A stretch of 64,000 nt of DNA from Armatimonadota bacterium. Its GTDB lineage: Bacteria; Armatimonadota; UBA5829; DSUL01. The DNA lies in NCBI GenBank assembly GCA_025998755.1, contig AP024674.1:1602162-1666161 (forward strand), in the 5' to 3' direction. Position 1 is the stretch's first letter, and every line of letters starts with the position of its first letter. The notes beneath the pieces are model-generated. The model saw only the letters and a list, made by a program, of their open reading frames with translations. It made no database searches and was not told the DNA's origin. The position numbers were made by a program, and so were the translations under genes. Shown one piece after another: positions 9,601-13,547 of this stretch.

Positions 9601-10332
9601 ATGGGCTCTCCCGTCGCGGCGCGTCTGCAGATTCTCGATGTCTTCCGTGGCAGCGCCATCGTCCTGATGGTGGCCTACCATTTCTGCTTCGATCTGGGTT
9701 ACTTCGGGCACATCCGGGCGGATTTCAACCACGACTGGCGCTGGCTGAGCTTCCGGGCGATCATCCTTTCCAGTTTCCTCCTGACTGCGGGAGCCAGCCT
9801 CGGCATCAGCGCCGCTCGAGGCCTCAACGCTCACCGGTTCTTGAAAGGGCTGGGCCAAGTGGCGGGAGCCGCAGCGCTCGTCTCCCTGGGAAGCTGGCTG
9901 GTGTTCCCGCGGAGCTGGATCTTTTTCGGTGTGCTCCACTGCATCGCTCTGTCCCGCATCATCGGCCTGGCGTTCATCGGCAGGCCGCAGGCCGCGCTAG
10001 GTACGGGGGTGGCGGTCACCATTGCGGGGCACATCTTCCACATACCGGCGCTGGACGCTCCGGCCCTCCGGTGGATCGGTATGATGACGTTCAAGCCCTT
10101 GACGGAAGATTATGTGCCGCTCTTCCCCTGGACCGGCATGTTCCTGACGGGGATGTGGGTTGGAGATCAACTGCTTCGCTCAGAGCCCATGAAGGCACTG
10201 CGGCGGTGGGAGAGCCGTTCGACCGCGGTTCAACTCCTTGCCTGGGCAGGCAAGCGCAGCCTCATCATCTATCTCCTGCATCAGCCGCTGCTTTTCGCCG
10301 TGTTCTATGCGGTAAGGGCGCTGCGCGGCTGA
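9601..10332 (+). CDS. DUF1624 / heparan-alpha-glucosaminide N-acetyltransferase-like membrane protein
   Basis: A 243-residue polytopic membrane protein of the HGSNAT-catalytic (DUF1624) family. The family start RLQILDVFRG is present, followed by AYHFCFDL, whose His matches the conserved catalytic-region His. About seven hydrophobic helices follow, and LLHQPLL stands near the end. Eukaryotic members move acetyl groups across the lysosomal membrane onto glucosamine; bacterial members probably acetylate a glycan. It faces nagA divergently, so a link to amino-sugar or cell-wall sugar metabolism is reasonable but inferred. An in-frame ATG at 9601 is used; its ribosome site is poor. The 3' end nearly meets the nuclease gene (9-base gap). 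Confidence 0.85.
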   Translation: MGSPVAARLQILDVFRGSAIVLMVAYHFCFDLGYFGHIRADFNHDWRWLSFRAIILSSFLLTAGASLGISAARGLNAHRFLKGLGQVAGAAALVSLGSWLVFPRSWIFFGVLHCIALSRIIGLAFIGRPQAALGTGVAVTIAGHIFHIPALDAPALRWIGMMTFKPLTEDYVPLFPWTGMFLTGMWVGDQLLRSEPMKALRRWESRSTAVQLLAWAGKRSLIIYLLHQPLLFAVFYAVRALRG

Positions 10333-10341
10333 GGGAGGTCA

Positions 10342-11343
10342 TCACGCAAAGGGATCGAACTCGTCCTCCTGCGCCGCGGCGTGCGCGGAGGAAGGCGGCG
10401 ATGCAGGCCGGTCATGGCAGATCTCCTGAAAGGGACATCGGGGGCAAAGCTCCGGGCGCCGGGTGACCGGGAAATGCTCGATGCCCAGAGGGATGTTCTC
10501 ATCCACATCCGCCAGTACCGATTTCATCAACTCCCAGGACTCCAGCAGAACCCGCTTCCCGTCCTCAATCCCCTCCTGAGTCACCTCCACCGTTTTCTCC
10601 ACCGGAGAGGGGAACAGGTAGACGAGCCGGACCCGGACGGATTCCGGCTGGAAGCCCCACCGGCTCTCCGCCAGCAATGCATAAAAGCGGACCTGCAGCA
10701 CGTCGGAATCGCGGGGTGATCCGGTCTTCCAGTCGAATACTCGAAGCCTGGACTTTGGCGCATCGGGAGGCGAAGCGTCATAAGCAAGGTCAGGGCGGCC
10801 GTAGGTGGGAATGCCCAGAACATCGACTGTCTCGAAGGAATCGCCGTCCGTGGCCATCCAATTCGCGAGGCGGCCGCGGCGTAGTTCCTCCCACGTGCGG
10901 GACGCGCAGAAGCTCCGGAGACACACCTCCACCCGCTCTTTCCCTCGCGCCACCCTTCCATCGCGGTCGGGCAAGCTGTAATAATCTTCCACCAGACAGG
11001 TCACGCGTTTCGGATCATACTTCCATCGACCAGACTGTGATTCGGCGAGCTTGCGGTCCCACTTGACCAGCGCAGTGGCTACAAGCTCATCCACCCCCAC
11101 CACCAACCGGTTGGAGCGGAAGCGGCGCAGCGCATCCTCGATTCCCTGATGGACCAGTTCGCCGGCCAACTGGTCCGCGGAGGTCATTCGGCTGAGACGA
11201 TAGGCAACCCGGCGCTCCTCCGGCGCCCGCTCATCCCACCCGCCCCACTTCAGGTAATGCTGATAGTAGTATCTGCGGCGGCAGGAGTCGAACGTCCGCA
11301 TCCGCGAGAAGGACCAGGCCAGTTTGTTCTGCAGAGGAGGCAT
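10342..11343 (-). CDS. RecB/Cas4-like PD-(D/E)XK nuclease with probable Fe-S cluster
   Basis: A 333-residue PD-(D/E)XK superfamily nuclease. In order: SFSRMRTFDSCRRRYYY with the first cluster Cys (about residue 21), ELVHQGIEDAL (GxxxHxxxE-type motif), GRPDLAY with the active-site Asp, VFDWKTG (D-x-K), LQVRFYALL (the Q-x3-Y motif), and a C-terminal CxxCxxxxxC. One early Cys plus three late Cys is the arrangement that holds a 4Fe-4S cluster in AddB and Cas4 nucleases. No helicase motif and no Cas1/Cas2 are nearby, so this is a stand-alone nuclease. It lies 50 bases downstream of the DUF763 gene on the same strand and is probably co-transcribed with it. Substrate unknown; a role in DNA end processing or repair is inferred. 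Confidence 0.88.
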   Translation of the reverse strand: MPPLQNKLAWSFSRMRTFDSCRRRYYYQHYLKWGGWDERAPEERRVAYRLSRMTSADQLAGELVHQGIEDALRRFRSNRLVVGVDELVATALVKWDRKLAESQSGRWKYDPKRVTCLVEDYYSLPDRDGRVARGKERVEVCLRSFCASRTWEELRRGRLANWMATDGDSFETVDVLGIPTYGRPDLAYDASPPDAPKSRLRVFDWKTGSPRDSDVLQVRFYALLAESRWGFQPESVRVRLVYLFPSPVEKTVEVTQEGIEDGKRVLLESWELMKSVLADVDENIPLGIEHFPVTRRPELCPRCPFQEICHDRPASPPSSAHAAAQEDEFDPFA

Positions 11344-11393
11344 CAGGTGCGGTTCACTCCAGCCAGCCGGGGATGCTGGACCCGGCGGCCACT

Positions 11394-12482
11394 CTAGACG
11401 CCCTCCGGCCAGAAAGACGCCAGACGTCGCACCGCAGCCAGCTTCTCGCTGCGTCCCATCCCTGACTGCTGTATGGCCCGCTTGAGCAGGGCGACCGTGC
11501 CGTCGTAGAGAGGCCGGTCCACGGGATAGGGAATGCCGTCCTTTCCTCCGTGAGCAAACGAATACACGGCCGGATCCCGCCAGCTCGGAGCGGTTCCATA
11601 AACCAGCTCCGCCACCATCACCAGCGCGCGAAGCGCCTTCGGACCCAGACCCCGAACCTCCAGCACATCCTCGAAGCTCCGGGGAGCCTGTTCATAGGCC
11701 GAGATCAGAACGCGGTCGAATCCGCGGGGACGAATGTCCTCCGGGGCGATCCAGTGCCGGGCAGGCAGATCCAACCGCTGGACCAGCGCGAGTTCACGCG
11801 CTACGGAGGCGGGGCCCTGCGCCAGCAGATCCACCACTGCATCCCTAGCGGATGCGGACTCGGAGGCCACCATGTTCAGCACCCGGCTCGCCTTCTGCTG
11901 CGCAGCGATCCCCGAGTGTGGCTCGTTGACGAAGCCGGGCATCGTTGGCGAATGCCAGTGGTAGCGCCGCGCATAGCGGGCCGCCTCGTTCATCCCCTGC
12001 TGCACCACGGACCATGCTCCGGAACGCGTGAAGAAAAAAGCGTGATGGTAGAGCTGGTACCCGTCCTGCAGGGCGGTGTTGTCCACCTTGGCGGCCAGCC
12101 GGCTGGCGCGCACCAGCGAAGTGGCGTCGACCGGCAGAGCCGCCGCGTCCGCCTGCCGGAGGATCTCCTCCGGAGTCTTGCGGGACGCCGCCCCCTTGCC
12201 TCCGGCGGCAAAGAAGCCCAGATCCACTTCCCGCCCGCGGATGCCCTCCTTCACCGCTCCGCAGGCCGTGGTGGTGACGCCGGAGGAGTGCCAGTCGAAC
12301 CCCAGCACGCATCCGAACGCCTGAAACCAGCGGGGATCGCTGAGCCGCTCCAGCATCTTCTCCGGGCCGTATTCTGCTACAATCAGCTCAGTCATAAGCC
12401 CGGCGAGACGGCACATCCGCGAGAAGAGCCATCGCGGCGCTTTTCCCCCGTGCAAGGGCAGACTGGCGACTCCTGTCCTCAT
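11394..12482 (-). CDS. DUF763 protein with a helix-hairpin-helix motif
   Basis: A 362-residue DUF763 protein, a family of unknown function found mainly in archaea and thermophilic bacteria. The family opening MRTGVASLPLHGGKAP fixes the ATG at 12482; earlier in-frame ATGs at 12494 and 12512 are less likely. A typical helix-hairpin-helix DNA-binding motif is seen around residue 290 (FEDVLEVRGLGPKALRAL). Other conserved-looking parts are GFDWHSSGVTTT and QLYHHAFFF. It heads a two-gene unit with the PD-(D/E)XK nuclease. The motif and the partner suggest a nucleic-acid role, but no activity is established for the family. Confidence 0.88.
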   Translation of the reverse strand: MRTGVASLPLHGGKAPRWLFSRMCRLAGLMTELIVAEYGPEKMLERLSDPRWFQAFGCVLGFDWHSSGVTTTACGAVKEGIRGREVDLGFFAAGGKGAASRKTPEEILRQADAAALPVDATSLVRASRLAAKVDNTALQDGYQLYHHAFFFTRSGAWSVVQQGMNEAARYARRYHWHSPTMPGFVNEPHSGIAAQQKASRVLNMVASESASARDAVVDLLAQGPASVARELALVQRLDLPARHWIAPEDIRPRGFDRVLISAYEQAPRSFEDVLEVRGLGPKALRALVMVAELVYGTAPSWRDPAVYSFAHGGKDGIPYPVDRPLYDGTVALLKRAIQQSGMGRSEKLAAVRRLASFWPEGV

Positions 12483-12531
12483 GCCTGCCGTCATTCTACC
12501 ACGGTCGAGCAACGGACTGGCGCGTCAAACG

Positions 12532-12559
12532 AAAAAGGCCGGCCCTCATGGGGCCGGCC
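12532..12559 (-). terminator. Terminator of the duplicated secreted-protein gene
   Basis: Read on the minus strand, a 9-bp perfect GC stem (12551-12559 with 12537-12545) is followed by five T (12536-12532). It lies 35 bases after the stop of the gene at 12594-13547 and before the DUF763 gene, separating the two units. Confidence 0.88.
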
Positions 12560-12593: not shown

Positions 12594-13547
12594 TCAGTCT
12601 GTAACCGCCCGCTCCGTCTTGACGATGATGTCGCCCCGGACGACCGGACCTCCCGCGACATATTCCGGCGGACCCGGCCGGGGATCCGTGCTCAGCAGCT
12701 TCGCGTGGACCTCGAAGAAGTCCGGCGGCGGCGCCACAAGATACCGTGCTCGCGGATCGACATTGTCCTCTACCTTGACCACCACCATGGCGAGGCGGCC
12801 GTTCCAGTAACCCCGGCCAGCCATCTCCGCCTTGTTACCGGCAGCTGCGAACTTCTCCCAGCGGGGGACGAAGATATTGTTGCCGAAAGAGGCGGCATTG
12901 TAAGGCGAGTCGGTGTAGTGCAGCGAGCCGACCGGACCTGCGGGCGTTGTCTCGGCCTTGAACTGGAACACACCCAGCCTGGGCTTGTCCACGATGGGCC
13001 CCGGCAGGGCGATCGCCCCGGCGCCCATCGCCACCGCTCTGGGAGCGGGCTTCGTCCAGACCTTGATGTCGCCGCTGTTCAGACCTCCGGCGGTGTCCTC
13101 ATAGATGACCGTCAGCATGCAGCCGTTCGCCTGGAAGTGCGCCCAGTCACCGGAGGGAGTATCATCCAGGACCTCAACGAACATGCAGGCCGGCTTTCCG
13201 TTGTAGACCGCCTGCGCCCGGATGGTCGCGAAGTTGCCCTTGATCTCCAGCGCTTCGATGCGTGTGGAGAACATGTAGCTCTTCAGCTTCCCGTCCGGCG
13301 TGACCCGGCGGTAGTTCATACCGCCGTACAACAGCCCCCGGAAGTCCGTCACGTTGATGTGGAAGAAGACCGTGTCCGGCTTCGCGATGGTGGAGGCATT
13401 GTCAGCGGGAACGGGATAGCTTCCGAAGCCCCTCACATACGCATCGGGCAGCAGGGCATAGTCCCCGGTGTCCTGAGCGGCTGCAGGCAGAGAAAACGCC
13501 GCAACAGCGACAAGAAGAAGGATACTGCGAACAGTCCACTTGAGCAT
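12594..13547 (-). CDS. Secreted protein of unknown function with an internal duplication
   Basis: A 317-residue exported protein I cannot assign. A signal peptide is clear (positive start, hydrophobic core, AAAQ cleavage site near residue 25). The mature part looks like two copies of one beta-rich domain. Residues ~65-150 run from a R-G-L-L-Y-G strand through 'I..L.IKGN.A.I...A.YNGK' to 'F.VEV.D'; residues ~205-290 run from V-G-S-L-H-Y through 'F.AAGNKAEM.GRGYWNGR' to 'VVVKVEDN'. The second copy is better conserved. The pattern resembles the beta domains found beside COAP and cell-surface modules, but this is only a resemblance. ATG at 13547 with a GGTGGTG-like site; own promoter and own terminator. 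Product probably periplasmic or extracellular. Confidence 0.82.
   Translation of the reverse strand: MLKWTVRSILLLVAVAAFSLPAAAQDTGDYALLPDAYVRGFGSYPVPADNASTIAKPDTVFFHINVTDFRGLLYGGMNYRRVTPDGKLKSYMFSTRIEALEIKGNFATIRAQAVYNGKPACMFVEVLDDTPSGDWAHFQANGCMLTVIYEDTAGGLNSGDIKVWTKPAPRAVAMGAGAIALPGPIVDKPRLGVFQFKAETTPAGPVGSLHYTDSPYNAASFGNNIFVPRWEKFAAAGNKAEMAGRGYWNGRLAMVVVKVEDNVDPRARYLVAPPPDFFEVHAKLLSTDPRPGPPEYVAGGPVVRGDIIVKTERAVTD

Follow-up and report, generated by a model that had tools for sequence, protein, structure and literature searches.

In one genus of the Armatimonadota, the gene of a DUF763 protein is followed on the same strand by the gene of a stand-alone nuclease with a predicted Fe-S cluster, the two belonging to families that are usually found apart. 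We tentatively read this arrangement, with a probability of roughly 0.4, as a genus-specific transcription unit in which DUF763 would be a DNA-binding enzyme of housekeeping repair and the nuclease its optional partner, with no part in defence. DUF763 may bind damaged DNA, or DNA of unusual structure, through its predicted helix-hairpin-helix (HhH) region, and would use polar residues that are invariant in the family to recognise, open, act on or mark the bound DNA. The strand so exposed would then be removed by the Fe-S-type nuclease, and the gap filled by ordinary polymerase and ligase. The nuclease would serve as a local partner that can be dispensed with, and other lineages would pair DUF763 with other repair-type genes or with none. 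We infer DNA binding, catalysis and partnership from what was observed at these loci, namely gene order, conservation and motifs. Since the two genes usually lie apart, the pair amounts at best to a local partnership in repair rather than to a general system.

The two genes lie in a 64,000-nucleotide stretch of DNA, hereafter the window, from a genome of 3.29 Mb (Table 1). A preliminary description had placed DUF763 50 bases before the nuclease, and we confirmed this order and spacing. Both open reading frames are genuine, as the strength of their family matches excludes chance ORFs: the DUF763 protein matched PF05559 with 433.9 bits (E 4.7e-130, cut-off 35.5; residues 14-331 on profile positions 1-319) and the nuclease matched PF12705 with 70.5 bits (cut-off 22; profile positions 2-247 of 247). 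ORF prediction also opens the DUF763 frame at a TTG at position 12512; the ATG given in Table 1 fits the family start MRTGxA.

Table 1. Features of the DUF763-nuclease locus (positions within the window).
Feature	Position	Strand	Details
Membrane acyltransferase-type gene (HGSNAT_cat), convergent	9601..10332	+	PF07786, 214.9 bits
PD-(D/E)XK nuclease gene (RecB/Cas4/AddB-type, stand-alone)	10342..11343	-	333 aa; PF12705
Spacer between DUF763 and nuclease genes	11344..11393	-	50 nt
DUF763 gene	11394..12482	-	362 aa; ATG start at 12482; PF05559
Terminator-like hairpin	12537..12559	-	9 G-C pairs, then TTTTTCGTTT; between preceding gene and DUF763
Gene preceding DUF763	12597-13547		ORF as scanned; gene end at 12594

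Upstream, the terminator-like hairpin likely marks the border of the unit towards the preceding gene, for which the Pfam scan gave no family. A pattern scan found four terminator-like sites in the region and 3.5 were expected from shuffles, so that only the strength of this hairpin (nine G-C pairs and a T run), the strongest stem among the four, argues for a terminator. The convergent HGSNAT_cat gene, whose end is separated from the nuclease stop by 10 nt, is the downstream border and stands outside the unit. The hairpin on one side and the convergent gene on the other suggest a putative two-gene transcription unit. As for the earlier statement that no helicase, Cas or recombination partner accompanies the pair, it is true locally of the two flanking genes that were scanned, one (12597-13547) without a Pfam family and the other (9601-10329) of the HGSNAT_cat type.

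The nuclease carries the motifs H65, D185, D204-x-K206 and Q217-x3-Y221, together with one N-terminal (C21) and three C-terminal cysteines (C300, C303 and C309). All these residues are invariant in an alignment of five homologues, and the four-Cys pattern described beforehand was thus found. This residue layout is that of an active Cas4/AddB-type Fe-S nuclease, of which both cluster and activity are predicted. By profile comparison its nearest relatives of solved structure are 9iac (4.4e-7) and 9iab (9.4e-4), titled hypothetical protein and PD-(D/E)XK endonuclease-like protein; literature naming either structure was not found. The nuclease gave no match in phages or plasmids. Two viral contigs from IMG/VR (L197 and L198) encode a relative with 25% identity.

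Conservation of the pair was followed through the phylum. The gene order and the flanking genes recur in G201, a second genome of the genus, where the two genes again lie about 50 nt apart on one strand; DUF763 is 96% and the nuclease 93% identical. Two other genera of the family both possess DUF763, and the nuclease is absent from them. At 20 further DUF763 loci of the Armatimonadota sample, one of which (L021) is cut off on its downstream side, tblastn gave no significant match to the nuclease within 1.5 kb. DUF763 occurs in 21 of the 201 genomes of the phylum and the nuclease profile (E <= 1e-8) in 32; five genomes contain both, with 3.3 expected (Fisher p=0.34). These five are the window genome (G000) and G005, G069, G095 and G126, and in the latter four the two genes are far apart or on different contigs. 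Adjacency with the window nuclease therefore stops at the genus. As the nuclease is absent beside DUF763 elsewhere, it is best seen as an independent gene that became a neighbour of DUF763 in this genus.

Genome-wide scans with PF12705 in sets of 72 and 35 DUF763 genomes found no adjacent case beyond this genus and a group of Dehalococcoidia, part of whose family the profile misses. In a sample of DPANN-type archaea, where DUF763 matched in 25 of 194 genomes (four of them as weak fragments), inspection by eye and a Cys-pattern filter recognised no adjacent nuclease. The idea of a conserved DUF763-nuclease system was rejected, adjacency being limited to the genus and one Dehalococcoidia group and co-occurrence being at chance. 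The expectation that the two genes would be neighbours across genomes stood in the sister genome and failed at the 20 other loci of the phylum and in the co-occurrence count.

The second pairing was found in Dehalococcoidia, where a different PDDEXK_1 protein of 446 aa with C-terminal Cys clusters is encoded directly after DUF763 in five genomes (L027, L043, L044, L057 and L126; gap about 70-200 nt) and about 900 nt after it in a further one (L065). Two of these proteins matched PF12705 with 33.8 and 27.7 bits, and parts of the two halves of the protein match each other. In a sample of the class, 2 of 30 DUF763 loci had an adjacent PDDEXK_1 gene, one of them in the query's own genome, with four loci (L137-L140) cut or broken. 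When the window and Dehalococcoidia nucleases were compared by hhalign, from shallow alignments, the alignment was confined to the terminal Cys motif (probability 0.8%). The two have PF12705 in common, and the comparison gave no sign of a nearer relationship. In one genome (G347), the adjacent PDDEXK_1 gene is missing from the PF12705 matches; the profile fails to detect part of the adjacent proteins of Dehalococcoidia, so that a lack of matches elsewhere counts as weak evidence. A pairing of DUF763 with a nuclease was thus seen more than once, though only two of the sampled lineages have it. The adjacency is not confined to the genome of the window, given the sister genome and the different PDDEXK_1 protein of Dehalococcoidia, and the proposed pair is not simply refuted.

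The two strongest alternatives to the repair mechanism are a chance neighbourhood and a role of DUF763 away from DNA. The former, in which a rearrangement joined two independent single-copy genes that remain together only because the event is recent and have no functional link, is a real possibility. It agrees with the lack of an adjacent nuclease at the 20 other loci of the phylum (L021 without visible downstream DNA), with the absence of the nuclease from both further genera of the family, although they have DUF763, with the co-occurrence value and with the many and varied neighbours of DUF763. It agrees less well with the maintenance of same-strand spacing in a second genome at 93-96% identity and with the choice of a different PDDEXK_1 protein by a second lineage.

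DUF763 itself has at least 581 relatives in species-representative genomes of many bacterial phyla and of archaea, as found by a scan of genome contigs from which the best 80 were kept. An alignment of 60 bacterial and archaeal sequences contains 58 invariant columns, among them H11, D63, H65, K96, K132, D134, D140, H147, R172, D303, H311, K314 and D315, and these residues look enzyme-like. Divergent relatives in small-genome archaea (L166, L167 and L168) scored 174-279 bits and start unlike the canonical MRTGxAxLPLH; they possibly form a paralogous subfamily. Plasmids also bear the family, in 230 records that are mostly rhizobial; neither the phage collection nor viral contigs yielded a match. 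A search of 5.39 million papers found one naming paper only (PMC554113), and a search by COG1415 found none; a passage of that paper lists DUF763 among families common to plant-associated bacteria and archaea. The family is very conserved yet unstudied, and the protein is probably DNA-binding.

An AlphaFold2 model built from 60 sequences (pLDDT 83, pTM 0.82) shows an N-terminal alpha/beta region of about residues 13-205 followed by a helical C-terminal region. The HhH motif claimed in the preliminary description would correspond to a GxG turn near residues 270-295: G278 and G280 are invariant in the 60 sequences and lie between predicted helices 270-274 and 281-295. As no Pfam HhH model matched the protein, this assignment comes from the motif and the model. 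HhH motifs mostly bind DNA. Searches for relatives of known structure gave no match with Foldseek at E <= 0.001 in the PDB or in the viral structure library, none with phmmer against the PDB at E <= 1, and nothing at E 0.01 in a profile search of the PDB, in which matches appeared only from 0.036 upwards. The best row in VIA-align was the TEFM N-terminal domain for the whole model (weak; Z 4.9, rmsd 3.3, 76 aligned) and HutP for the N-terminal domain predicted alone (non-significant; Z 4.3, rmsd 4.6, 120 aligned). Such weak matches are no proof that the fold is new; nor does the fold reveal any catalytic activity, since no PDB match is significant.

A bolder interpretation holds that DUF763 represents an undescribed class of DNA-lesion-processing enzymes in bacteria and archaea, with an unsolved catalytic fold and an HhH grip on DNA, and that a Cas4/AddB-type Fe-S nuclease was recruited to it separately, as a partner dedicated to excision, in at least two unrelated lineages. 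We regard this as doubtful.

A relation to repair can be examined through the neighbours of DUF763 in other genomes. Genes for PolX (L038), RarA/MgsA (L047) and DNA polymerase I (L068) lie within 100 nt of it on the same strand. Endonuclease V follows it directly on the same strand in four Dehalococcoidia loci (L111, L113, L130 and L135), likewise within 100 nt, and the same-strand neighbours at this distance further include the glycosylases Fpg (L133) and OGG1-type (L154) and an AlkB-type oxygenase (L142). For a controlled comparison, a fixed rule applied to 158 loci gave 113 near genes (89 after collapsing) and 388 distal genes (349 after collapsing), with spurious ORFs in both sets. Queried with 32 repair proteins of E. 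coli K-12, the collapsed sets contained 4/89 near and 9/349 distal repair genes (p=0.31) and the uncollapsed sets 7/113 and 9/388 (p=0.06), the distal numerators being uncollapsed matches in either case. Four of the seven near matches are endonuclease V from one class. The distal matches numbered 13 in raw form, from which four were dropped as AAA/ABC cross-matches (two to ruvB with 18% coverage, two to uvrA with 17% and 9%). The E. coli set misses AlkB, OGG1, PolX and PDDEXK_1 near DUF763. A post hoc count of all recognised repair genes, which adds these four types near DUF763 (including the PDDEXK_1 gene of L027) and PolX and UdgX distally, gave 8/89 against 11/349 (p=0.035). Base-damage and gap-filling genes gave 7/89 near and 3/349 distal (p=0.0008), a value that should carry no weight because the categories were picked after the near set had been seen. 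NCBIfam scans of the 89 near and of 89 distal genes matched 77-146 families each, with 25 per scan among the matches listed. An enrichment of repair genes beside DUF763 is therefore not demonstrated by an even-handed control, and the signal is weak.

Near neighbours with metabolic functions are many and comprise MTHFR, FolD, leuB, chorismate synthase and purH. In two metagenome-assembled genomes of different phyla (L028 and L039), DUF763 lies tightly between genes of the methylenetetrahydrofolate reductase type and the amidohydrolase type, and in L113 and L135, where endonuclease V follows, a FolD-like gene stands upstream. Within 100 nt of DUF763 and on its strand, ADP-ribosylglycohydrolases are encoded at L035:4199-5167 and L084:2545-3543 and a macro-domain protein at L080:7408-7965; a link of DUF763 with ADP-ribosylation is possible. 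A protein of 85 aa, which by eye resembles an EF-Tu domain-2 fold, is encoded directly beside DUF763 in bacteria and an archaeon (L047, L061 and L154:1077-1334). In another Armatimonadota genome, a DNA N6/N4 methyltransferase gene (L019:228-1334) lies 34 nt after DUF763.

DUF763 might, instead of a DNA-repair protein, be an enzyme of RNA modification or of nucleotide or one-carbon metabolism, its HhH region binding structured RNA or contacting a protein. We judge this rather unlikely. The MTHFR-type neighbours (L039 by Pfam, L028 by eye) speak for such a role, as do the FolD neighbours of L113 and L135 (recognised by inspection; the set also contains an NCBIfam FolD match), a MazG neighbour (L011), m5C methyltransferase-like neighbours seen by eye (L056 and L087) and the ADP-ribosylglycohydrolases, and it would suit both a conservation at the level of housekeeping enzymes and the non-significant fold match to the RNA-binding HutP. 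However, neighbours of the endonuclease V, glycosylase, polymerase and nuclease types recur in different lineages, and the known preference of HhH motifs for DNA also favours the repair reading.

The pair had been proposed to act in repair or defence. Repair stands as a possibility on the grounds of the neighbours elsewhere, whose enrichment is weak, and defence is not supported. An anti-phage module, with DUF763 as a sensor of foreign or modified DNA that the nuclease would destroy, is very unlikely. The best PADLOC profile for the nuclease, Aga_Cas4-like_Nuc, matched nearly over its full length (6.2e-17), and a patchy distribution in 21 of 201 genomes and the presence on plasmids would suit such a module; but DUF763 itself has no PADLOC match, was not found in phages or viral contigs and co-occurs with the nuclease at chance level, a Piwi gene was not found in the genome and the flanking genes that were scanned within the window include no defence gene. 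On a conjugative plasmid of Rhizobium sp. WYJ-E13 (L147:1-5254), DUF763 closes a tightly packed cassette whose other genes, all on its strand, are an XRE regulator, DUF4186, two hypothetical genes, an ASCH domain and a small AAA/kinase-like ATPase, with an N6 DNA methylase beyond it on the opposite strand. It resembles a DNA-modification or nucleotide cassette of an undescribed kind, and the place of DUF763 beside the methylase would suit defence.

A link with CRISPR was assessed from the genome positions. The nuclease (1612506-1613504) is located about 460 kb from cas1 (1152018-1152899) and not beside it, which argues against a CRISPR-associated Cas4. Another PDDEXK_1 ORF (1153033-1153497) adjoins cas1 and is probably the true Cas4, so that the adaptation module has a nuclease candidate of its own. 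A second, weaker Cas1-like match is present at 2937844-2938503. That the window nuclease is a solo-Cas4 serving CRISPR adaptation in trans is highly improbable: cas1 is present in the genome and the Cas4 profile TIGR00372 matches the nuclease weakly, but the score of 25.1 bits is far under the cut-off of 65 bits and the different PDDEXK_1 ORF occupies the place directly beside cas1.

Pairing with the nuclease is by itself a local curiosity, and DUF763 is the part that deserves attention. It combines dozens of polar residues invariant in bacteria and archaea and a large number of relatives with a single naming paper and no significant relative in the PDB. Should DUF763 act on damaged DNA, a repair activity of wide distribution would have gone unnoticed, and the two-gene unit together with the forms linked to endonuclease V, glycosylases and polymerases would provide ready-made test constructs.

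Compared with known systems, the DUF763 protein of the window is an ordinary full-length member of PF05559 and differs from it in nothing. Among nucleases, the Argonaute-associated Cas4-like proteins are the best PADLOC match, but the genome has no Piwi-domain gene (PF02171, 0 matches), and this identity was rejected. Cas4 proper was rejected by its curated equivalog cut-off. Solo-Cas4 proteins, for which a passage of PMC5704561 considers a possible role in defence or repair, resemble the window nuclease in their location outside CRISPR loci; the latter is longer than the 180-position Cas4 model, in addition to its low score. The nuclease domains of AddB and RecB belong to the same superfamily and have the same Cys arrangement. 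In AddAB and RecBCD, the nuclease is joined to a UvrD-type helicase, whereas the window ORF of 333 aa matches only the nuclease family PF12705, without a helicase part, and its flanking genes are not helicases, which speaks against membership of these complexes. A close likeness is to the stand-alone Cas4/AddB/RecB nucleases of PF12705, with which the window nuclease shares the H, D, DxK and QxxxY motifs and the arrangement of one plus three cysteines. Its Armatimonadota relatives, with about 30% identity, sit elsewhere in their genomes, and the window nuclease is distinguished from them by its place beside DUF763 in its genus.
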